In this document: positions 7,446 through 31,556 of the stretch, piece after piece
Numbering within the stretch: the first letter of the stretch is position 1
Layout of the letters: each line of letters opens with the position of its first letter
From: Candidatus Brocadiia bacterium
GTDB lineage: Bacteria > Planctomycetota > MHYJ01 > JACQXL01 > JACQZI01
Direction: 5' to 3'
Assembly (NCBI GenBank): GCA_020051675.1
Contig: JAGVQN010000115.1
Span: forward strand, 1 to 32,180
Length of the DNA: 32,180 nucleotides
The notes under the pieces: model-generated
What the model saw: the letters and a program-made list of their open reading frames with translations, nothing else
Database searches by the model: none
What the model was told of the DNA's origin: nothing
Translations under genes and position numbers: made by a program

Positions 7446-10280
7446 TTATTCGCCTACCTTGGTCGGCGTGGTTTTATCCGTGTAATCATTCACCCCTAAT
7501 TGGCCCAGGTCGTTAAGCCCCCATGTCCAGATGGTGCCGTCATTTTTCAGCGCGATATTATGCCGGCTTCCGGTGGATATCATTGACCAAGTGGTTAATA
7601 CGCCGATTTTAGTCGGGATAAGCTTGTTTGTTCCCTCGCCGCTATCACCCAGTCCGAGTTGCCCGTGATTATTAAATCCCCATGACCATAATGTCCCGTC
7701 ATTTTTGATGGCAATGGAATGATATTCGCCGGCTGAAATCTTTGCCCAGTCGGAATCCGTTCCCACGCGCACCGGCGTGTTCCTGTTTGCGGTATCGTCC
7801 AGCCCCAATTGTCCGTAGTTATTGATTCCCCAAGCCCAAAGCGACCCGTCTGATTTTATCGCTAAGGTGTGGTATTTACCTCCGGCAATCATATTCCAGT
7901 TTGTCGCGCTTCCGACCTGTGTCGGGGATGTCCTTTCCGTTCCGGCGCCGCTGTTCCCTAGCCCAAGTTGTCCGTATTCATTATGCCCCCATGCCCATAA
8001 AGTCCCGTTAGTTTTTATGGCCAGCGTGTGATAACGCCCGGCCGTTATTTTCAGCCAGTCCGTGGCGCTCCCCATTTGCGCCAGGATTGTTCTTCTGGTA
8101 TAATCTCCGAAGCCGAGTTGGCCGAATCCGTTATATCCGCATGACCAGATTGAGTTGTTGTTTTTCCTGATGATGGAATGGAATTCTCCTACCGCGATAT
8201 CTATCCAATCCGTTGACGAAGGATTTGTTATTTGTTCCGGGGTTATTTTCTCCGCTCCGCTTCCCCAGACGATAAGCCCTAATTGACCGTCGCTGTTAAA
8301 TCCCCACGACCAGATCGAGCCGTCTGTTTTTACGGATAGATTATGGTAACTTGCGGCTATGACCGTATCCCAGTTATATAAAGCGCCGATGCGTGTCGGC
8401 ACGCTTTTATTGGTCCCGGTGCCTTTGGTTCCAAGTCCCAGTTGCCCGTCATCGTTATCGCCCCAGGACCAGATGCTGTTATTACTGGCAACGGCTATGC
8501 AATGGGAGTATCCGGCAGAGACTTTCAGCCAGCTGCCGTTTGTCGTATTGCTTGAAGTGTTTGAGGCGGCGCTGTCCCCGAACCCGTTGTATGCCTTGAC
8601 GAGGTAATAATATGTTGTCAGCGGCGAAAGCCCGGTGTTGGAATAAGAAGTTATATTGGCGTCAAGCGTGGCAATTTGGGTGTAGTTTCCGTTGCTTCCT
8701 ATCTTGCGCCATATTTTAAATCCGAGTTCGTTTGAAGAATTATCGAACCATCCCAGGTCAATCTGGGAAAGTGATACGACCGTATTGGTCAAGGTGGTGG
8801 GCGCGGCCGGTATCCCGGTTGCCGGCGCCGGTTCGTCGCGGTTATCGTTATCATTAAGCCCTAATTGTCCTAAATCATTTTTACCCCAGCTTGAGATGGT
8901 CTTATTGTTTTTTAAGGCAATTGAATGGTAATCACCGGTCGTGACCGCAATCCAATTTGTCTCCGAGCCGACTTTTGCCGGAGCGGTCCTGCTTATCGTA
9001 TCGTTCAGCCCTAATTGCCCGTAGTCGTTATTTCCCCATGCCCAGAGTGTTCCATCTGTTTTTATCGCCATCGTATATCCGTTACTTATTGAAACAGTTG
9101 CCCAGTTTGTTTCGGTGCCGACCCTGGTCGGAGTTGTTCTGCTTATGGTATCGCCTAACCCTAATTGCCCGGAATCGTTTTTGCCCCACGCCCAGAGTGA
9201 ACCGTCTGTCTTTATGGCAAACGTATAACCTTTGCACGCGGCGGCGGTTGCCCAATCCGTATCGGTCACTACTCTTGCCGGGGCTGTTCTGCTTAAAGTA
9301 TCGCCTAACCCTAATTGCCCGGAATCGTTTTTGCCCCATGCCCAGAGTGTTTTATCCGCCTTTATGGCGACGGCGTAGCTCTCTCCGGCGGAAACTTTAT
9401 CCCAGTCCGTATCGCTTCCTATTTTAGAAGGGGAGTCTTCGTTATCCGTATTTCCCTTTCCCAATTGCCCCCAATCGTTTTTACCCCATGACCAGAGTGT
9501 CTTGTCGTTTTTGATGGCAAGTGAATGGAAGTCTCCGGCGCCGAATACTTTCCAGTCGGTATCGCTCCCGATTTGCGCCGGCTGTGTTTTGGTTATGGCG
9601 TCGTTAACGCCCAATTGCCCGAAGTCGTTCCTGCCCCATGCCCAGAGCGTGCCGAGTGTTGTCAGGGCGAGGGAGTGGCCGGAAGAGCCGGCGGCTATTT
9701 TTGACCAGTTGGAAGCGCTCCCTATCTTTACCGGTCCGGATCTCGCGGTCGTATCGCCCAGCCCCAATTGTCCGTGTGAATTGCCGCCCCATGACCAGAT
9801 AGTCCCGTTAGTCGCAATTGCCAGGGAGTGTTCTCCGCCCGCGCTTACTTCTGACCAGGCGTCGTAGGTGGTCGCCGTTGCCTCGTTGGAATAATCACTG
9901 TAACCGTAAGGATTATAGCTCCTGATTCTGTAATAATAAGCGGTTGAAGGCATCAGCCCCGTATCCGAAAATGCTATGACATTCGGACCGACCGCCGCAA
10001 TCTGCCCGTAAGTTCCGCCGGCTCCGGTTTTGCGCTCTATCTTGAATCCGGTTTCGTCCAAAGAGGCGTCTGTCCAGGAAAGGTTAATCTGTGATGTGTT
10101 GACGGCGTTTGCGGCCAGCGATAGCGGTATGTTCGGAACCGTGAGAGCGCCGCTGCTTCCCGCGGTTGTAGTATCGTCGTCATTGTCTTTATCTTTGGAC
10201 CAGCAGCCTTTAGCCCCGGTAAAAAAGGCAAGGGCAAAGGAAATCAGAAGAGTGATTGTAATCAATATTCGTGTCTTCAT
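7446..10280 (-). CDS. secreted RCC1-repeat protein with two fibronectin type III domains
   Basis: 944 aa; N-terminal hydrophobic signal; two FN3 segments (PLSLAANAVNTSQINLSW..., APTTLTNTVVSLSQIDLGW...) each followed by seven W.W/GQLG repeat units. Confidence 0.85.
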   Translation of the reverse strand: MKTRILITITLLISFALAFFTGAKGCWSKDKDNDDDTTTAGSSGALTVPNIPLSLAANAVNTSQINLSWTDASLDETGFKIERKTGAGGTYGQIAAVGPNVIAFSDTGLMPSTAYYYRIRSYNPYGYSDYSNEATATTYDAWSEVSAGGEHSLAIATNGTIWSWGGNSHGQLGLGDTTARSGPVKIGSASNWSKIAAGSSGHSLALTTLGTLWAWGRNDFGQLGVNDAITKTQPAQIGSDTDWKVFGAGDFHSLAIKNDKTLWSWGKNDWGQLGKGNTDNEDSPSKIGSDTDWDKVSAGESYAVAIKADKTLWAWGKNDSGQLGLGDTLSRTAPARVVTDTDWATAAACKGYTFAIKTDGSLWAWGKNDSGQLGLGDTISRTTPTRVGTETNWATVSISNGYTMAIKTDGTLWAWGNNDYGQLGLNDTISRTAPAKVGSETNWIAVTTGDYHSIALKNNKTISSWGKNDLGQLGLNDNDNRDEPAPATGIPAAPTTLTNTVVSLSQIDLGWFDNSSNELGFKIWRKIGSNGNYTQIATLDANITSYSNTGLSPLTTYYYLVKAYNGFGDSAASNTSSNTTNGSWLKVSAGYSHCIAVASNNSIWSWGDNDDGQLGLGTKGTGTNKSVPTRIGALYNWDTVIAASYHNLSVKTDGSIWSWGFNSDGQLGLIVWGSGAEKITPEQITNPSSTDWIDIAVGEFHSIIRKNNNSIWSCGYNGFGQLGFGDYTRRTILAQMGSATDWLKITAGRYHTLAIKTNGTLWAWGHNEYGQLGLGNSGAGTERTSPTQVGSATNWNMIAGGKYHTLAIKSDGSLWAWGINNYGQLGLDDTANRNTPVRVGTDSDWAKISAGEYHSIAIKNDGTLWSWGFNNHGQLGLGDSGEGTNKLIPTKIGVLTTWSMISTGSRHNIALKNDGTIWTWGLNDLGQLGVNDYTDKTTPTKVGE

Positions 10281-20261: not shown

Positions 20262-21696
<1,435 letters not shown>

Positions 21697-21922: not shown

Positions 21923-22056
21923 CCACGCTCCCTACAGTCGCTCGCAATTACAGAAGAAGCATTTCGCAAAAGTTCAGTAAATAGCATACCAAATATGATA
22001 AACTATGACATACCCCCATACCGCCACCCCCCATACCCCTCAGCGCCAAGGTTTAT

Positions 22057-22322
22057 ACCCCCTTCGGCCAGTAAGCGTATCCCCTTAGGCCAGTAAGCGT
22101 ATCCCCTCCGGCCAGTAAGTGTAGCCCATCCGGCCAGTAAGTGTACCCTATCCGGCCAGTAAGTGTACCCCATCCGGCCAGTAAGTGTAGCCTATCCGGC
22201 CAAGAAGTGTACCCCATCCGGCCAAGAAGTGTACCCCATCCGGCCAGTAAGTGTAGCCTATCCGGCCAGTAAGTGCACCCCCTCCGGCCAGTAAGTGTAC
22301 CCCATCCGGCCAAGAAGCATAG
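22057..22322. repeat. tandem array of 12 x 22-bp units
   Basis: GGCCA starts at 22066, 22088, 22110, 22132, 22154, 22176, 22198, 22220, 22242, 22264, 22286, 22308: exact 22-bp spacing; consensus GGCCAGTAAGTGTACCCCATCC. Confidence 0.97.
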
Positions 22323-22768: not shown

Positions 22769-24352
22769 TTAAGACTTAATTATCTTCTCGGCTTCGGCTT
22801 TATCTACATCCATCGCGTAAGTGATGCCGCTGATATCGGTCGCTTCCTTGGTCAGTGACATCAAATCATCGCGGGAGATATTATCCAGCGTGAACTTCCT
22901 GCAGCCGGCCATCAACTGCCGTAATCCTTGAGCCAACCTTTCATAATAGGTGTAAAGCCCGATAGCGCCGGTGGGGAGTTTTTCGAATTCCGCATCGCCA
23001 AGTTCCTTGCGCAGGGAAGCGGCGGTCACAAAGATTTCGTCTTTGCTTGAGCCGAACCTTTCCACATAAACCGGCAGCTGATTTTCATCTATCGCGCGGC
23101 CGATTGTTTTACCGACCATTGCCGCGGCTATCGGGGCGCGGGCCATGCCGATCATCTTGACAAACGGGGCGCCCATTGAAAGCCCCTTGAAAATCTGGTC
23201 TTCAAAACTAAAGCCGCCGCCTACGGCAATCGCCGGCAGGTGTGCTTTCTTTTCAGCCAGCATTTTGGCATATTTGTAAACGAGCGAGTGCAGTTCGACC
23301 GGAGGAACGCCCCATTCATTCATCATCTTCCAGGGGCTCATGCCGGTTCCGCCGCCTGCCGCGTCCACGGTCAGGAGGTCCAGTTTATATTTGGAGGCGA
23401 ATTTCATGGCCAATGCCAGAGCGGCCGGGCGGTAAGCGCCGGTTTTCAGGAAGATATACTTGGCGCCTGCCTTGCGCAGTTCTTCCACGCGTTGGGCAAA
23501 ACCTTCTTCGGAGACCATGCCGACCCTGGAATGGCGCTCGAATTCCTTAAAGGCGCCTTTTTCAAACGCCTTGATAACGTTCGGGTCCATCGGGTTAGGC
23601 AGCAAGACATAACCGCGGTCGTAGAGCATCTGGGCTTTCTTCAAATCCCGGATTTTCACTTCACCGCCGATATTCTTCGCGCCCTGACCCCATTTCAACT
23701 CCACGCAGGTGACGCCGAGCTTTTCAATGGCGTATTCCTGGACGCCCAAGCGGGTATCTTCGACATTCGCCTGGACGATAATCGCGCCGTAACCGTCGTG
23801 CTGGCTGTCCATATAAAGCTTTACCCTGCGCTTTAAATCTACCGTATCCATGACACGGCCATTTTTAATGACAGCCTGCGGGTCCATGCCGACGACGTTT
23901 TCTCCGATGGTTAAGGGCGTCCCCGAAATAGCCGAGCCGATTGCCAGTCCTTCCCAGTTATTCTTAGCTATATCGGTCGAGCCGATGCCGGAAATCACCC
24001 ACGGATATTTAAATTTCAATCCTTTATCATGCCCGATAGCCAGTTCCAGCTTGACGTTCGGGAAAATGGCCTTGTCGCTATCCGCTTCGATTCCCTGCGC
24101 GCCGATTACGCCGCTGATGATATTGAAATGTGAATAATCGACCGGATATGCTTTTTCGCCGGCTGAAGTGATGACGCCAAATGGCTGGGGATAAATGACT
24201 TCATGCCCCCGGTAGGCGGATTTGCCGATTTCGCACATGCCGATGCATCCATCCACGCATGTTGCGCACATGCCGGATGCCGGTATGACCGAGCCTTCGG
24301 TCCTGTTTTTGGTCAGGGTGGCCGCTGTTGCATTCGTCTTCGAGAGTGACAT
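22769..24352 (-). CDS. FMN-binding-domain glutamate synthase-like protein (stand-alone, GltB2-like)
   Basis: 527 aa; AAGGGTGMSPWKMMNEWGVPPVELH, AVGGGFSFEDQIFKGLSMGAPFVKMIGMARAP; no N-terminal amidotransferase domain; N-terminal CATCVDGCIGMC. Confidence 0.85.
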   Translation of the reverse strand: MSLSKTNATAATLTKNRTEGSVIPASGMCATCVDGCIGMCEIGKSAYRGHEVIYPQPFGVITSAGEKAYPVDYSHFNIISGVIGAQGIEADSDKAIFPNVKLELAIGHDKGLKFKYPWVISGIGSTDIAKNNWEGLAIGSAISGTPLTIGENVVGMDPQAVIKNGRVMDTVDLKRRVKLYMDSQHDGYGAIIVQANVEDTRLGVQEYAIEKLGVTCVELKWGQGAKNIGGEVKIRDLKKAQMLYDRGYVLLPNPMDPNVIKAFEKGAFKEFERHSRVGMVSEEGFAQRVEELRKAGAKYIFLKTGAYRPAALALAMKFASKYKLDLLTVDAAGGGTGMSPWKMMNEWGVPPVELHSLVYKYAKMLAEKKAHLPAIAVGGGFSFEDQIFKGLSMGAPFVKMIGMARAPIAAAMVGKTIGRAIDENQLPVYVERFGSSKDEIFVTAASLRKELGDAEFEKLPTGAIGLYTYYERLAQGLRQLMAGCRKFTLDNISRDDLMSLTKEATDISGITYAMDVDKAEAEKIIKS

Positions 24353-24366
24353 ACTTCTCCTCCTTT

Positions 24367-25044
24367 TTAATCTTTCTTTATTTCACAAGCCACGCAAGGT
24401 GACATATAACACATCATATCGTCGAACTTTTCCTTTTCCAGGCAAGGCGGTTCCAGGTTGGCGCAGCCGCCGCAAATCGCTTTATCCGGCTGGGTATAAG
24501 TGCAGCGTAGCTGGCAGGCCGGGCATACATACATACATCCTCCGCACAGGCGGCAAACTTCACTCTTGGCGTTAAAGGGCGTATTGATAACTCGTTTTTC
24601 GCCCCTGTTTTGGAAACCAATCGCGCCGGCCATCATCTGCTCCTTGCACATCCGGACGCACAACCCGCAAAGGATGCAATCCTCGTGTTCCTGCTTGAAC
24701 CTCTGCTGGCGCACGCCGAAAGAAGAAGCCAAATCCTGAATCTGTTTGGATTGCGGGCAGGAAGCGAGCAAGAGCTCGATAACCATCCGCCTGGCTTTCA
24801 TCACCCTTTCCGAAGCGGTGCGGACTTTTAAGCCCTCCTCAACCGGATAGGTGCAGGAAGAAACCAGCTTGGCGCGCGTTCCTTCCCCGATTTCCACCAC
24901 GCACAAACGGCAGGCGCCATAAGGGGAAAGCCCTTCCATATGGCAAAGCGTGGGTATAGGAAACCCCATGAACCTGGCGGCTTCCAGCAAGGTGCTTCCC
25001 TCTTCCATTGAAACTCTTACGCTGTTAATATATAAATTCACCAT
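24367..25044 (-). CDS. NuoG/HoxU-like iron-sulfur subunit (2Fe-2S plus multiple 4Fe-4S motifs)
   Basis: 225 aa; PTLCHMEGLSPYGACRLCVVEI...SSC; CILCGLCVRMC; CRLCGGCMYVCPACQLRC; C-terminal CGGCANLEPPC...CYMSPCVAC. Confidence 0.85.
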   Translation of the reverse strand: MVNLYINSVRVSMEEGSTLLEAARFMGFPIPTLCHMEGLSPYGACRLCVVEIGEGTRAKLVSSCTYPVEEGLKVRTASERVMKARRMVIELLLASCPQSKQIQDLASSFGVRQQRFKQEHEDCILCGLCVRMCKEQMMAGAIGFQNRGEKRVINTPFNAKSEVCRLCGGCMYVCPACQLRCTYTQPDKAICGGCANLEPPCLEKEKFDDMMCYMSPCVACEIKKD

Positions 25045-25066: not shown

Positions 25067-26917
25067 TTATTTCACTTCAACTGCTTCGAACTTGCAGATT
25101 GTCCGGCAAACGCCGCACTTTATGCACTTGCTTGTATCAAGCTTATGCTGTTTCTTTTTCGCGCCGGTTATCGCTTCTTTCGGGCAGGATTGCCTGCATA
25201 AACCGCAACCGGTGCATTTGTCGTTTATCGAATAAGTAATCAGTTCTTTGCACACACCGGCCGGGCATCTCTTATTATTAATATGCTCCAGGTATTCATC
25301 GCGGAAGTATTTCAGCGTGGAAAGAACCGGGTTCGGAGCGGTTTGCCCCAAACCGCACATGGTAGTATCTTTAACCGCCAGTGCCAGTTCTTCCAGCAAA
25401 TCTATTTTCTCCGGGGTTGCCTTGCCTTTGGAAACCTCATCCAGTATTTCGTGCATTCTTTGGGTTCCCTTCCGGCAGGTGAAACATTTGCCGCATGATT
25501 CATCTTTCAGGAAATTCATATAGTATTTTGCCACGTCCACCATGCAGGTGTTTTCATCCATGACAATCATCCCGCCCGAACCCATAATCGAGCCGGCTTT
25601 AGCCAGGCTGTCATAGTCTACTGTTAAATCAAACATCTTTTCCGGGATACATCCCCCCGAAGGACCTCCGGTCTGGACGGCTTTGACTTTTGATTTGCTT
25701 GCCGAGCCTCCTCCGATTTGGTAAACAATATCCCTGAAGCTCGCCCCCATCGGGACTTCGACAAGTCCGGTATTTTTGGCTTTGCCGACCAGGCTGAATA
25801 TTTTTGTGCCGGTATTTTTATTAGTTCCGATTTTAGCGAATGCCGCCGCGCCTTTATTGATGATATACGGAATATTAACCCATGTTTCCACATTATTAAT
25901 AGCCGTCGGGCGGTTATTAATCCCTTTCTGCACCGGAAAAGGAGGGCGTTGGCGCGGCTCGCCCGTTTTGCCCTCGATTGACTTAATAAGTGCGGTTTCT
26001 TCCCCACAGACAAAGGCACCGGCTCCTTTGACAATCATAATATCAAAAGAGAAAGAGGTGCCGAGTATATTCTCGCCCAGGAAACCCATTTCGCGAGCCT
26101 GCTGCAGAGCGATAATCAGGTGCTTGACGGCGAGTGGATATTCATTCCTTGCATAAACAACGCCGTCTTTGGCGCCGGTCGCATAGGCGCCGATAATCAT
26201 GCCTTCAATAATGCTGTGTGGATTGCCTTCCAGGACGCTCCGGTCCATATAAGCACCGGGGTCGCCTTCATCGGCGTTACAGGCCAGGTATTTGCCCTTG
26301 TCCGAAGGCTGTTTGGAAAGGAATTCCCACTTAAGCCCGGTCGGGAATCCGGCGCCGCCTCTTCCGCGCAATCCGGAACTCTTCACCTCATTCAAAACCC
26401 AGGCGCTGTCGCCTTTTTCCAGGGCTTTTGCCAGCGCGGAATAACCGTCATTCTCAATATAAGTAAAAATCCTTATCGGGTCGACTTTCTCGTTGCGGGA
26501 AATAATCAACCGCATCTGTTTCTTAAAGAAAGGTATCTCATCCTGTTTTTCTACCCGGCGCCCGGTTTCCTTATCAAGGGACAATAAATCCTCGACCACT
26601 TTCCCTTCGGCGGCCGCGTGGATAATCCGCGCCATATCTTTCGCATTAACCTTGGGATAAAACGTCCCTTTTGGCTCAACCAAAACGGAAGGCTCCATTT
26701 CGCAGAAGCCCTGGCAGCCGGTTATCCGCAGGTTTATTTTCTTTAGAAGATTTTTCTTGAGCATCTCGCGTTTGGCAATGCGGATAAGGTCATTAGCACC
26801 GCTTGCCTGTCCGCAGGTGCCGGCCGGAATCACAACCGTCGGGATGCCGGAATTCTGGAGAGCAATCAGTTTCCCCTGCAAAGCTTTGAATTCCTGGATT
26901 GATTTTAGTTTTTTCAT
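25067..26917 (-). CDS. NuoF/HndC-like NAD(P)H- and FMN-binding subunit with C-terminal 2x[4Fe-4S] ferredoxin domain
   Basis: 616 aa; GLRGRGGAGFPTGLKWEF, CNADEGDPGAYMDR, GAGAFVCGEETALIKSIEGKTGEPRQRPPFP, ESCGKCFTCRKGT, C-terminal CTGCGLCRQSCP...CIKCGVCRTIC. Confidence 0.95.
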   Translation of the reverse strand: MKKLKSIQEFKALQGKLIALQNSGIPTVVIPAGTCGQASGANDLIRIAKREMLKKNLLKKINLRITGCQGFCEMEPSVLVEPKGTFYPKVNAKDMARIIHAAAEGKVVEDLLSLDKETGRRVEKQDEIPFFKKQMRLIISRNEKVDPIRIFTYIENDGYSALAKALEKGDSAWVLNEVKSSGLRGRGGAGFPTGLKWEFLSKQPSDKGKYLACNADEGDPGAYMDRSVLEGNPHSIIEGMIIGAYATGAKDGVVYARNEYPLAVKHLIIALQQAREMGFLGENILGTSFSFDIMIVKGAGAFVCGEETALIKSIEGKTGEPRQRPPFPVQKGINNRPTAINNVETWVNIPYIINKGAAAFAKIGTNKNTGTKIFSLVGKAKNTGLVEVPMGASFRDIVYQIGGGSASKSKVKAVQTGGPSGGCIPEKMFDLTVDYDSLAKAGSIMGSGGMIVMDENTCMVDVAKYYMNFLKDESCGKCFTCRKGTQRMHEILDEVSKGKATPEKIDLLEELALAVKDTTMCGLGQTAPNPVLSTLKYFRDEYLEHINNKRCPAGVCKELITYSINDKCTGCGLCRQSCPKEAITGAKKKQHKLDTSKCIKCGVCRTICKFEAVEVK

Positions 26918-26936
26918 AATTTATCCGTTTAATTCT

Positions 26937-27788
26937 CTATAAATTTACACTACTCAAATCAAGCATATGCTGGCGGCATCCACGCCGGGAACAGATTTGG
27001 ACTATACCACCACCGTAAACAATCATCGGAACCATGGGCGCATCGCATTCCGGACAGTTACCGGCTTTAATGAACGGGGCATTGCAATGCGGGCAGAAAA
27101 AGTTTACCACGCTATCCGATGTGATTTCGAACTCAGATTCCATATGAGGGCTACCGTAAAGAGAAGACAGCCTAATCCATCCGTGTTTTTCCCCGAAGGA
27201 AGCGGTAAGCTTAATGGACGGATGCTTATCAATCAGCTGTTTTGAGTCCATCAGGCTATGGTTGCAATGGGGGCAGCTTACTTCCACCGGGAAAATGCGC
27301 TCGTCCTGGTCGACATCCACTTTATCCAACCCTTCGCGCGTTTTCTTTATTATTTGCTTGACCCTGGAAGGGGTGACATTGGAAAAGTAATGCCCGTTAA
27401 CCACAACCATCGGTCCCAAAGCGCATGAACCAAGGCAGTTTACCGGCTCAAGGCTGAACTCCATATCAGCGGTGGTTTCCCCCGCCTTGATATTAAGCTG
27501 CCTTTCAAACTCCTCGATAATCTGCGGAGAGCTTCTGATATGGCAGGCCGTTCCCAGGCAAACCGACACAAGATATTTACCAATCGGTTTCAGCCTGAAA
27601 AAGCGGTAGAAGGTGGCCACCCCGAATATTTCTACTACTGAAGTCTTGGTTTTTTCTGCCACTATTCTTAAAGCCTCTTCCGGAAGATACCCGTAACGTA
27701 TCTGAATGCCTTCCAAGATTGAAATAAGGTGTCCCAGTCCATTCTGGTGCTTATCGACTATCCGGATAACTTCTTCTTTGTCAACCAT
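26937..27788 (-). CDS. NuoE/HndA-like thioredoxin-fold 2Fe-2S subunit with C-terminal zinc-ribbon-like extension
   Basis: 283 aa; VSVCLGTACHIRSSPQI...VNCLGSCALGP; extra C-terminal CPHC, CPHC, CPEC, CSRRGC. Confidence 0.9.
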   Translation of the reverse strand: MVDKEEVIRIVDKHQNGLGHLISILEGIQIRYGYLPEEALRIVAEKTKTSVVEIFGVATFYRFFRLKPIGKYLVSVCLGTACHIRSSPQIIEEFERQLNIKAGETTADMEFSLEPVNCLGSCALGPMVVVNGHYFSNVTPSRVKQIIKKTREGLDKVDVDQDERIFPVEVSCPHCNHSLMDSKQLIDKHPSIKLTASFGEKHGWIRLSSLYGSPHMESEFEITSDSVVNFFCPHCNAPFIKAGNCPECDAPMVPMIVYGGGIVQICSRRGCRQHMLDLSSVNL

Positions 27789-27810: not shown

Positions 27811-28086
27811 TCACCTGTATTCTTCGCAATGGCAGATTCCGCCTTCAGGTTTAGGGCGGTTGCAATCTTCACGGTTTTCACAATTCATGCACAGCCCCTT
27901 ATACTGGCGAGAATCTTTTTCCACCATTGCGTTTGCGTTTGAAGCAAGGCTCATTCCCGAGCCACCGGGAATATATTCATATTCGTTGCAGTGTTGTATT
28001 GGCTTGGTTGCCGATTTCTGAAAGGAACACTCCGGGGTATTCTTGCAATTCACGCACAAATTTTTACGTTCTTTAGCTTTTGGCAT
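27811..28086 (-). CDS. small Cys-rich protein with two copies of a C-x2-C-x5-C...C-x-EY motif
   Basis: 91 aa; LCVNCKNTPECSFQKSATKPIQHCNEYE and LCMNCENREDCNRPKPEGGICHCEEYR; GGAGG-like RBS; first gene of the operon. Confidence 0.7.
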   Translation of the reverse strand: MPKAKERKNLCVNCKNTPECSFQKSATKPIQHCNEYEYIPGGSGMSLASNANAMVEKDSRQYKGLCMNCENREDCNRPKPEGGICHCEEYR

Positions 28087-28198
28087 ATATAGCAGCCTCC
28101 TTTTTTAATTAAGGGGCATTAGCGGCTACGCTTTTTCCATAACTTGGGGTATTAGACGCACGCTTTTTCCCTTACTCACTCCGCGGAGTTCTCCCGGA

Positions 28199-28230
28199 GA
28201 GAGCGAAGGTTCTGATGGGTCTTCGCTCTC
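28199..28230. promoter_or_regulatory. hairpin in the predicted 5' UTR of the Nuo/Glt operon
   Basis: GAGAGCGAAG-N12-CTTCGCTCTC perfect 10-bp arms. Confidence 0.6.
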
Positions 28231-28293
28231 CCCTTAGAAAGGAGATTGGGAAATCAGCGTAGCGTGCTTATCCCCGATTATTCTCTATAATAT

Positions 28294-28309
28294 AGCAATT
28301 AGCGTGCCA
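28294..28309 (-). promoter_or_regulatory. sigma-54 (-24/-12) promoter of the Nuo/Glt operon
   Basis: - strand reads TGGCACG-CTAA-TTGCT, matching TGGCACG-N4-TTGCW; adjacent to an NtrC-type activator. Confidence 0.75.
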
Positions 28310-28489
28310 AGAAAGGTGGAAATAGGCGTGCGTTTCCGGTGGCCTGTTGAACCACCGAGAAATCAATGCCTTAGATATTTATGTCGCGGTTATGATAAAA
28401 TAATTTTGTATGATTTTGAAAGAACTTTTATGGGTTTAGCGGGGAGATTTTACCCGGTTGGAGAATATTTACCCAGCAGGATATGGGTT

Positions 28490-29854
28490 TTATTTGGTTA
28501 ATTTATCGCGGAGAGTTTTCCTGTCTATCCCGAGTATTTCAGCGGCTTTGGTTTTATTGCCGCCAACGCTTGCAAGGACATTCTTAACATATTCAGACTC
28601 CATTTCAACCAATGTTTTGGCAGGCTTTATTTTACCGGAATCAGAAACATTCAAGGCTGAAAACCGCATTAAACTCGGCAGGTCAGGGACGTCAATAGAA
28701 TTGCCATCCGTCATAACAACCATTCTCTGGATTACATTTTCGAGTTCTCTGACATTCCCCGGCCAGTGATAGTTTTTAAGAACCTGTAAAGCCTCGTCAG
28801 AAAAAGAGGGGACGGTCTTGCCGCTTTCGCGGGCAAACTTGGCGATAAAGTGGTTTATCAAAAGTAAGATATCATCTCCCCGCTCCCTTAACGGAGGGAG
28901 TTCGACCATGATGATATTCAGTCGGTAAAACAAATCCTCGCGGAAAAGGTTTTTCTTGACCAGTGCCTGCAAATCCTTATTGGTGGAAGAAATTATCCGG
29001 ACGTTTACTTTTCTGGGCTGGCTGGAGCCTATCATGCAAACTTCTTTCTCCTGCAGGACCCTTAAAAGCTTGACCTGCATGGCCGGAGTTGTCTCGCTTA
29101 TTTCATCCAGGAAAATAGAGCCTCCGTCCGCGGTCTGGAAAAAGCCGAGCCGTGATTCTGAAGCGCCGGTAAAAGCGCCCTTGACATAGCCGAAAAGCTC
29201 GCTTTCCAGAAGTGTTTCCGGAATACCGCCGCAGTTTACCGGGATAAACGGGGCGGAAGCGCGTGAACTGCTGTAATGAATCGCCCTGGAAACCAGCTCT
29301 TTGCCCGTTCCGCTTTCGCCGAAAATCAGCACCGTAGCGATGGTGGAAGCGGCTTTATTGATTGCGCTGAATACTTTTTGCATCGCTTCTGATTCGCCGA
29401 TAATACCCTGCGGGGTACGCGGAGTGCAATGACCCTGCCCAAGAGCGGTTTTACGGATGTGTAATTTATCCAGTGTCCGCCGTACGGCCGAGGATAATTC
29501 ATCATCCGTAAAAGGTTTGGAAAGATATTCCTCGGCGCCGGTCTTCATTGCCTCAACCGCGCCGTTAATTGATGCGTATCCGGTAATCATCATCACCTCG
29601 GTTTCATGGGAATTTTCCCGGATGTGCTTTATCAAATCAAGCCCGTTCGCGCCGGGCATTTTAAGGTCGGTAATCACCAAATCAAGCGGGGTATCTTCAA
29701 AAATAGTTATCGCCTCGCGGACATTCGGAGCGGTAAAAACCTGATAACCCTGGTTCGTCAAATTCCTGCGTAATAACTCCAATGTATCCGGTGCATCATC
29801 CACCACCAAAATACTCTCTTTTACAACTGCTGTTTCCATACTAATTCTGCTCAC
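28490..29854 (-). CDS. sigma-54-dependent NtrC-family response regulator (REC-AAA+-Fis HTH)
   Basis: 454 aa; receiver VVDDAPDTLELL...DLVITDLKMPG...SKPF; GESGTGKELVSRAIH; GAFTGA; Fis-type HTH NKTKAAEILGIDRKTLRDKL. Confidence 0.96.
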   Translation of the reverse strand: MSRISMETAVVKESILVVDDAPDTLELLRRNLTNQGYQVFTAPNVREAITIFEDTPLDLVITDLKMPGANGLDLIKHIRENSHETEVMMITGYASINGAVEAMKTGAEEYLSKPFTDDELSSAVRRTLDKLHIRKTALGQGHCTPRTPQGIIGESEAMQKVFSAINKAASTIATVLIFGESGTGKELVSRAIHYSSSRASAPFIPVNCGGIPETLLESELFGYVKGAFTGASESRLGFFQTADGGSIFLDEISETTPAMQVKLLRVLQEKEVCMIGSSQPRKVNVRIISSTNKDLQALVKKNLFREDLFYRLNIIMVELPPLRERGDDILLLINHFIAKFARESGKTVPSFSDEALQVLKNYHWPGNVRELENVIQRMVVMTDGNSIDVPDLPSLMRFSALNVSDSGKIKPAKTLVEMESEYVKNVLASVGGNKTKAAEILGIDRKTLRDKLTK

Positions 29855-31556
29855 CTTCGGTTGCGGTTAAATCATCTATCGGGAAACTCACCTCAAAACA
29901 AGTTCCTTTGTCAGGCGCGCTTTTTACCTTTATCGAGCCGCCATGTGCGGCAACAATCCCATGGACGACCGAAAGTCCCAAACCCGTTCCCTGCCCCACT
30001 TCCTTAGTGGTAAAAAACGGAATAAAGACCTTTTTTATTATTTCTTCGCTCATTCCGATACCGGTGTCAGAAACGGTCAGTAACACATATTTATTTGCCG
30101 CTTCGGTCCGGACGGTTAAAACGCCGCCAGAGGGCATTGCCTGAATGGCGTTTACAACCAGGTTAACTATCACCTGATGTAATTGTGAATGGTCGGCGAC
30201 AATATCAGGAAGTTTAGGGTCAATTTCGCGGATTAACCTCACGCCCTCTTTCTGGCAACGTGATTCCAGGAAATAAAGCCCTTCCTGAACGACCTGATTA
30301 ATATTAACGCTTGATTTCCTTATCGGCATCTGCCTGGCAAAAAGCATAAGTTTTCTGATGACTTCTCTGGTATGCAAAGATGCCTTGATGATTTTTTCTA
30401 TATCTTGAGAAGCCTGCGCGGGCAATCCGGGGCATTTTGCGGAAAGCTGTGCAAAGCCGAGTATATCGCTTAACGGTTCGTTTATTTCGTGTGCCACGCC
30501 GGCGGAAAGCTGTCCGATAGTGGCTAATCTGTCCGCATGGCGTAATTGTTCCTGCAGTTTTATCCTGTCATCCTCGGCATAACGGCGTTCTATCAAAACG
30601 GCAATCTGGCGCGCAATAGTATCCAGAAGGCTCTGTTCCTCCTTAAGGAAAAGCACATTTTCCGTCTCCCCTGCCGTTTTGGTGTAAAAGACTTCAACCA
30701 TTCCTCTTTTTTCGCCTCGGACAAAAATATCCGAATAGAGTTTTCGGTCTGTTTCCGTAAAATTAACAGTGGAATATATTTTACCGTCAAGCACAATCCG
30801 ACCTGAAGCAAAATCCGGGTATTGAAACGCCGGAGGCAGTAAATCTGCTATGCCCTGAAGAATACCGTCCAGCGAAAGATTAAGCTGGCTGACCAGTCCG
30901 GCAATCCCGTAAAGACAGATTAATTCTTTAACACGTTCCCTCAAGGCCGCTTGGGCACGGCGGTTGGCGATAGAAACGCCCAGTATTTGCCCGACCTGCT
31001 CGTATAACTCTATATCCTGCGGCTTAATATGTTCAGAAGATTTGCATTTTAACTGAAGAACACCTCTGTTATGTTCATCGATGATAAACGGTATCATCGC
31101 CATAGATTGGCAACTATCTTCGAATACGGTTTTATTTTGTTCCCCGCAAATAGCCAGTGTTTTTAAGTCCTTCTGCGCATTGCCTGTCCAAAAACTGCCA
31201 TGCTTGGTAAAGAAAGGCATGGCCGGATTGAGATTACCGCTGAAAAGGTTATTAAACAACTTATCATCCACAGTATTTTCCGGTGATTCATAAACAAACT
31301 CTCCCTTTTTATTCTGGTGGACAGGGAGAATTTCGAACTTAAAAGATTCTTCGGGATGAATCCGGGCGGCGAAACGGTAATACATCGGGCCTTCTGCCAC
31401 TCGGAACTCAACCGCATCGCATCCGGAAAAATTAAGAACTATTCTTGATGTTTCCTTTAAGAACTCGATGCGCGGAATCCCTTTGATTGCATAGTCTAAA
31501 ATCTTGCGCGATAACGCCCAGAAATCGCTAAACTGACGATTCATGGATTCAATCAT
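29841..31556 (-). CDS. GAF-domain sensor histidine kinase (soluble)
   Basis: 571 aa; GAF-like regions; H-box GQLSAGVAHEINEPLSDILGFAQ; N-box VVNLVVNAIQAMP; DTGIGMSEE; GTGLGLSVVHGIV; no clear TM helix; overlaps the RR start by 14 nt. Confidence 0.93.
   Translation of the reverse strand: MIESMNRQFSDFWALSRKILDYAIKGIPRIEFLKETSRIVLNFSGCDAVEFRVAEGPMYYRFAARIHPEESFKFEILPVHQNKKGEFVYESPENTVDDKLFNNLFSGNLNPAMPFFTKHGSFWTGNAQKDLKTLAICGEQNKTVFEDSCQSMAMIPFIIDEHNRGVLQLKCKSSEHIKPQDIELYEQVGQILGVSIANRRAQAALRERVKELICLYGIAGLVSQLNLSLDGILQGIADLLPPAFQYPDFASGRIVLDGKIYSTVNFTETDRKLYSDIFVRGEKRGMVEVFYTKTAGETENVLFLKEEQSLLDTIARQIAVLIERRYAEDDRIKLQEQLRHADRLATIGQLSAGVAHEINEPLSDILGFAQLSAKCPGLPAQASQDIEKIIKASLHTREVIRKLMLFARQMPIRKSSVNINQVVQEGLYFLESRCQKEGVRLIREIDPKLPDIVADHSQLHQVIVNLVVNAIQAMPSGGVLTVRTEAANKYVLLTVSDTGIGMSEEIIKKVFIPFFTTKEVGQGTGLGLSVVHGIVAAHGGSIKVKSAPDKGTCFEVSFPIDDLTATEGEQN

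Follow-up and report, generated by a model that had tools for sequence, protein, structure and literature searches.

A probable two-component sigma-54 circuit with tandem operators at a Bfu-type operon carrying a glutamate-synthase-like subunit

The NtrB-NtrC, AtoS-AtoC and ZraS-ZraR systems each consist of a histidine kinase (HK) and a response regulator (RR) of the REC-AAA+-Fis type, with dyad enhancers above a -24/-12 promoter and with the HK and RR genes adjoining the target. Among enzymes, the HydABC-type electron-bifurcating enzymes have been defined as the Bfu family (PMC9304861). The locus described here was found in a stretch of 32,180 nucleotides, the whole of which is called the window. 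Judged by its sequence, the adjacent HK-RR pair, tandem operators and a sigma-54 promoter very likely switch on a redox operon. The features are, in order of transcription:

29841..31556, minus strand: soluble HK with two GAF-like domains, HisKA (His356) and HATPase_c; overlaps the RR gene
28490..29854, minus strand: NtrC-family RR with REC (Asp63), AAA+ with GAFTGA, and Fis-type HTH (Pfam PF00072, PF00158, PF25601, PF02954)
28460..28474, minus strand: promoter-distal operator UAS1, GGGTAAATATTCTCC, 19 bp from UAS2
28441..28455, minus strand: promoter-proximal operator UAS2, GGGTAAAATCTCCCC, a likely RR site; de novo motif, one of a tandem pair
28309..28294, minus strand: sigma-54 promoter, -24/-12 TGGCACG-N4-TTGCT; exact consensus match, conserved across phyla
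28087..28283, minus strand: structured 5' leader of 197 nt; predicted fold, kept in the same-genus genome G001
27811..28086, minus strand: first gene, 91-aa protein with two C-x2-C-x5-C-xn-C modules; conserved with the circuit
26937..27788, minus strand: HydC/BfuC (NuoE-like) [2Fe-2S] subunit with a Cys-rich C-terminal extension
25067..26917, minus strand: HydB/BfuB-type (NuoF-like) subunit with an FMN motif and bifurcating-type Cys motifs
24367..25044, minus strand: short HoxU/HydA-N-terminal-like (BfuA-like) Fe-S subunit
22769..24352, minus strand: glutamate-synthase-like FMN subunit (Glt) with an N-terminal Cys cluster (Pfam PF01645; GOGAT by Foldseek)

The first-pass annotation had placed a near-perfect sigma-54 site on the minus strand at 28294-28309, and the site is present exactly there with the correct consensus and spacing. 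The sequence TGGCACGCTAATTGCT is the only zero-mismatch match to TGGCACNNNNNTTGCW in the whole window. The distance to the first operon gene, given earlier as about 210 nt, was measured as 207 nt to the ATG at 28086, and the predicted transcription start near 28283 agrees with the -12 position. The 1.2-Mb bin has 6 exact matches to TGGCACNNNNNTTGCW and the 2.9-Mb genome G001 has 37, against 0 in both for the control in which the pattern was read backwards; sigma-54 sites are thus clearly enriched in the genus. The promoter 16-mer is identical in the G001 locus (L035). Many of the 37 exact sites in G001 (L126-L154) have the spacer ATAT (TGGCACGATATTTGCT), and several precede short proteins of a repeated family, a pilin-like protein or secreted-looking proteins, without an operator pair.

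The presence of rpoN, which the annotation had asked to be confirmed in the genome, was borne out in relatives but not in the window's own bin. No rpoN was found in that bin, which is 57% complete; the gene was found in G001 and in 57 of 61 searched genomes, with none missing among the 29 that passed the completeness cut. Two rpoN-like genes occur in G001 (G001:C24 and G001:C6), one of them matched as two pieces of a 523-aa frame.

The gene at 28490-29854, claimed to encode an AAA+ GAFTGA response regulator, does encode a REC-AAA+-Fis protein with GAFTGA. All three NtrC-family features tested are present (phospho-acceptor Asp in REC, GAFTGA in the AAA+ domain, Fis-type HTH). The protein falls below the NCBI cutoffs for NtrC, AtoC and ZraR; for the NtrC equivalog of NCBIfam it scores 412 bits, short of the 558.6 required. 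The kinase had been described as a GAF protein with no clear transmembrane helix. The latter part holds, as no membrane helix was found (best 19-residue Kyte-Doolittle mean 1.55). The GAF assignment is weaker in the window protein, where the profile match (E 0.0075) is below the curated cutoff, but the ortholog in L049 exceeds that cutoff (E 6e-10) and the AlphaFold model predicts two GAF-like alpha/beta units. Phytochrome kinases are among the top Foldseek matches of the HK.

The operator pair at 28441-28474 and the leader structure were both absent from the first-pass annotation. The operator motif was obtained by an EM search of the stretch from the RR stop codon to the -24 element in 34 loci. 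Its consensus, approximately CGGGGAAWWTTTCCCCG, is a palindrome of the form GGGG-N7-CCCC with an A/T centre, and scored 487 under an 18-bp palindromic model compared with 150-220 in resampled sequence. The operators come as pairs 18-19 bp apart, the pair score peaking at a spacing of 17-19 bp, and across loci the usual distance of the pair above the -24 element is about 160 bp (131 bp in the window). Many of the loci later scored had also been used in training the operator matrix, and held-out loci reduce this circularity without removing it. The main guard against it is therefore the occurrence of the pair in seven loci outside the training set (L060, L062, L064, L078, L092, L112 and L119), each followed at a distance of about 130-210 bp by a promoter-like site.

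All pairs scoring at least 22 bits in the scanned loci were located at this control region. Tightly specified operator patterns gave poor coverage when genomes were to be searched widely, and the whole-genome operator search was confined to G000 and G001. In these two genomes the search for tandem operators returned this operon and otherwise matches at background level. No other sigma-54 promoter among those examined in them has the pair upstream; L152 has a single site. Within the genus these results support the annotation's proposal that the circuit is dedicated to the operon. Autoregulation of the HK-RR genes was considered and rejected: one weak operator (11.8 bits) lies upstream of the HK gene in the window, there is no sigma-54 site, and the relatives are inconsistent.

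A search with the Glt protein gave 80 related loci. According to the record names these belong to Planctomycetota, Zixiibacteriota, Deltaproteobacteria/Thermodesulfobacteriota, Bacteroidota, KSB1, WOR-3, Spirochaetales, Acidobacteriota, Gemmatimonadetes, Coatesbacteria and others. The genes for the HK, the RR, the 8-Cys protein, the NuoE-, NuoF- and HoxU-like proteins and the Glt flavoprotein are found in the same order across many phyla. Allowing up to 2 mismatches in 12 positions, a -24/-12 site was found within 450 nt after the RR stop codon in 35 of 42 loci, where Markov resampling predicts 2.7 of 42 and where the opposite strand gave 0 of 42.

A census was made of 55 loci, with cutoffs of at least 15 bits for the pair and at most 3 mismatches for the promoter. 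Since the loci share descent or were transferred, the counts are not independent events; of the 41 that bear an RR gene, 37 passed both cutoffs. L080 is borderline because its promoter has 4 mismatches, although the pair is there; L086 and L096, also borderline, have pairs of 14.1 and 14.9 bits. An inserted dehydrogenase gene in L051 shifts the pair and promoter beyond the scanned stretch, and both were seen there in a separate scan. The 14 loci without an RR gene in view comprised 5 with pair and promoter and 9 without the pair; several of the 5 are cut by contig ends, and L062 and L092 apparently have no adjacent RR gene. In the 42 loci passing both cutoffs the GG and the -12 G are invariant and the -12 C is found in 39. 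Footprinting, proposed earlier as a check, thus shows that syntenic loci from about ten phyla keep the promoter, and that the tandem operator linked to it tracks the RR gene. Between the window species and G001 the UAS block is 74% and the promoter 89% identical, the spacer separating operators and promoter 53% and the third codon positions of the RR gene 70%.

Two genomes that yielded no Glt gene also have an ortholog of the RR. In one of them, G017, an 8-Cys gene and a gene of the Glu/Leu dehydrogenase family are preceded by a pair of operators and a promoter with two mismatches; in the other, G021, a pair and a promoter follow the RR gene, with other genes downstream. The dehydrogenase gene inside the L051 operon belongs to the same Glu/Leu family. 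A glutamate or nitrogen link of the circuit is suggested, on a modest basis, by the GOGAT-like subunit together with the dehydrogenase genes of G017 and L051.

The operon had been labelled Nuo/Glt, and the first half of this label does not stand. No Pfam family of the membrane proton-pumping subunits of complex I was found among the window genes scanned. The closest PDB relatives of the NuoF-like protein are the HydB/NfnB subunits of bifurcating enzymes, and the protein carries SCGKC, CPAGVC and two C-terminal ferredoxin (4Fe-4S) motifs, so that "Nuo" is to be read as a HydBC/Bfu-type core. At the level of sequence motifs the features of Bfu membership are present (BfuBC core, FMN, the N-terminal motif, CPAGVC and two C-terminal 4Fe-4S motifs), and the enzyme core is by these motifs of the HydBC/Bfu (electron-bifurcating) type, accompanied by a GOGAT-like FMN subunit. 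The predicted Glt model has the GOGAT synthase fold (Foldseek), its first 96 residues being modelled at low confidence. Pfam gave no glutaminase (GATase) domain in the Glt subunit or among the operon genes, the PDB gave no sequence relative of the subunit, and a plasmid search with it returned just two distant (~40%) relatives.

The NuoE and NuoF proteins of the window and of G001 (L035, G001:C16) are 45-57% identical, the flanking HK, RR, 8-Cys, HoxU and Glt genes 79-95%. In G001 NuoF has 1059 aa and is fused to a GltD-like domain; in the window it has 616 aa and a ferredoxin tail (25067-27788 region). The NuoE/NuoF core has apparently been swapped inside a conserved operon. The 91-aa 8-Cys protein matched no family in Pfam or NCBIfam; the family (27811-28086 and orthologs) is first in the operon and mostly co-occurs with the circuit. 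The operon is followed after 1.16 kb by a same-strand gene for an NADP-type glutamate dehydrogenase (GDH) at 20262-21608, and GDH-family genes are found near the operon in several relatives. A tandem array of 11.7 copies of a 22-bp unit (22056-22312) is situated between the Glt and GDH genes, and, given the 1.16-kb gap that holds it, GDH is not supported as a member of the operon. Further along the window, 7446-10280 encodes a large RCC1-repeat protein with a fibronectin type III domain.

The leader has a predicted minimum free energy of -76 kcal/mol (z -5.3) in the window and -71 (z -5.0) in G001. Its identity between the two is 88-92%, depending on the alignment, and it is thus better kept than the operator-promoter spacer or the RR third codon positions. 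It is a single-copy element in both genomes of the genus and was seen in this genus only; a dispersed element was rejected on the same grounds and by its absence from 39 other genomes searched. Elsewhere the median length of the predicted UTR is 52 nt, the starts having been chosen automatically. Rfam gave nothing at the gathering cutoffs, and a sub-threshold mir-67 match on the opposite strand of the hairpin was put down to chance. The leader is possibly a second layer of control in the genus.

The promoter, the operators, the RR and HK domains, their conservation and their co-occurrence can be read from the sequences, and regulation in vivo would run as follows. The HK (31556..29841) would sense a cytoplasmic signal through its two GAF-like domains and phosphorylate the RR (29854..28490), which would bind the tandem palindromic operators at 28460-28474 and 28441-28455. 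The AAA+ ring of the RR would then assemble, its GAFTGA loop touching sigma-54 by looping of about 130 bp of DNA, and the promoter would open. Sigma-54 RNA polymerase would transcribe the operon from 28309..28294, giving a transcript from about 28283 with the folded 197-nt leader, the 8-Cys protein, the HydABC/Bfu-type flavo-iron-sulfur core and the glutamate-synthase-like subunit. The signal could, at a guess and as the most speculative part of the scheme, be a nitrogen- or glutamate-related or a redox metabolite inside the cell; the redox/nitrogen signal of the first-pass annotation is likewise a guess.

The promoter might instead be driven mainly by another enhancer-binding protein, such as a general nitrogen regulator, with the neighbouring two-component system regulating something else. 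Related genomes do contain many NtrC-family regulators (52 candidates at a first look in G001), and L062 and L092 retain the control elements with no RR gene beside them. However, the operator pair tracks the presence of the RR and was not seen at any other of the sigma-54 promoters inspected in G000 and G001, and the RR ortholog of G017 has the pair below it, before a different target, in a genome with no detected Glt gene. Such an activator is considered improbable. It is very improbable that the operon depends on sigma-70 promoters or on transcription reading through from HK and RR, with the -24/-12 site of minor importance. Two weak minus-strand sigma-70-like matches (9/12), located close to the RR end and within the gap, are consistent with this, as is the lack of any terminator-like site on the minus strand between the RR gene and the operon. 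Sigma-70-like matches are, however, near shuffle level (3 found against a mean of 1.0, sd 0.9), and the sigma-54 site and the operators have been conserved while the spacer drifted to 53% identity.

The Glt subunit is ~80% identical across phyla, which is high for vertical descent, and the cross-phylum conservation of the sites could thus reflect shared ancestry after horizontal spread of a cassette rather than selection on the control region. Against this, UTR lengths and spacers vary widely, but the operators persist at their 18-19 bp spacing, as do the GG and G of the -24/-12 elements, and within the genus the spacer has diverged below the level of the RR third positions. This explanation is given the least credence of all. 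Control by the adjacent HK-RR pair through the tandem operators and the sigma-54 promoter remains the preferred reading. A wider proposal, doubtful as a whole, is that a horizontally mobile cassette (soluble GAF kinase, NtrC-type RR, CGGGGAAWWTTTCCCCG tandem enhancer, sigma-54 promoter and 8-Cys protein) controls glutamate-linked redox enzymes in about ten phyla. Its main target would be an undescribed Bfu-type enzyme in which a glutamate-synthase-like flavoprotein is coupled to NAD(H) and ferredoxin, with the leader as the second control layer in this genus.

With operator, spacing and regulator now specified, the regulon becomes testable and the same switch can be marked in many uncultured lineages. 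The Bfu-type operon with its glutamate-synthase-like subunit and 8-Cys protein can be treated as one regulated unit, which offers a handle on the purpose of the enzyme. Literature searches and term look-ups, in sources of partial coverage with subscription papers mostly outside, gave no description of the operon or operator. The circuit is of a well-known kind, and its regulator, operator and operon are apparently undescribed, a novelty that is provisional because of this coverage.

The enzyme resembles Bfu (PMC9304861) in its BfuB-type subunit with FMN, 4Fe-4S, CPAGVC and two C-terminal ferredoxin motifs and in its BfuC-like and short BfuA-like subunits, and differs by the added glutamate-synthase-like FMN subunit. 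The main text of that paper does not use the terms glutamate synthase, GltA, GltB, GltS and GltD. In most relatives of the operon NuoF is fused to a GltD-like domain in place of the C-terminal ferredoxin. These fused relatives share with the Sporomusa-type Nfn, StnABC (PMC7483475), a NuoE/NuoF-like core and a GltD-like NADPH domain. In StnABC, however, the GltD-like domain is on the NuoG-like subunit, whereas here it is on NuoF in the relatives and absent in the window, and the three Stn subunits, as given in PMC7483475, include no GltB-like subunit. The Glt protein shares the FMN-binding synthase domain with the GOGAT large subunit, as both Pfam and the fold indicate, and differs from it in the N-terminal Cys cluster, with no glutaminase domain found and no sequence relative in the PDB. 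The regulatory part shares with NtrB-NtrC, AtoS-AtoC and ZraS-ZraR the same layout of HK-RR pair, enhancer, promoter and adjacency. It is set apart from them by an RR below their NCBI cutoffs, by the CGGGGAAWWTTTCCCCG operator with its 18-19 bp pair spacing, by a soluble GAF-like kinase and by a target that is a flavo-iron-sulfur oxidoreductase operon.
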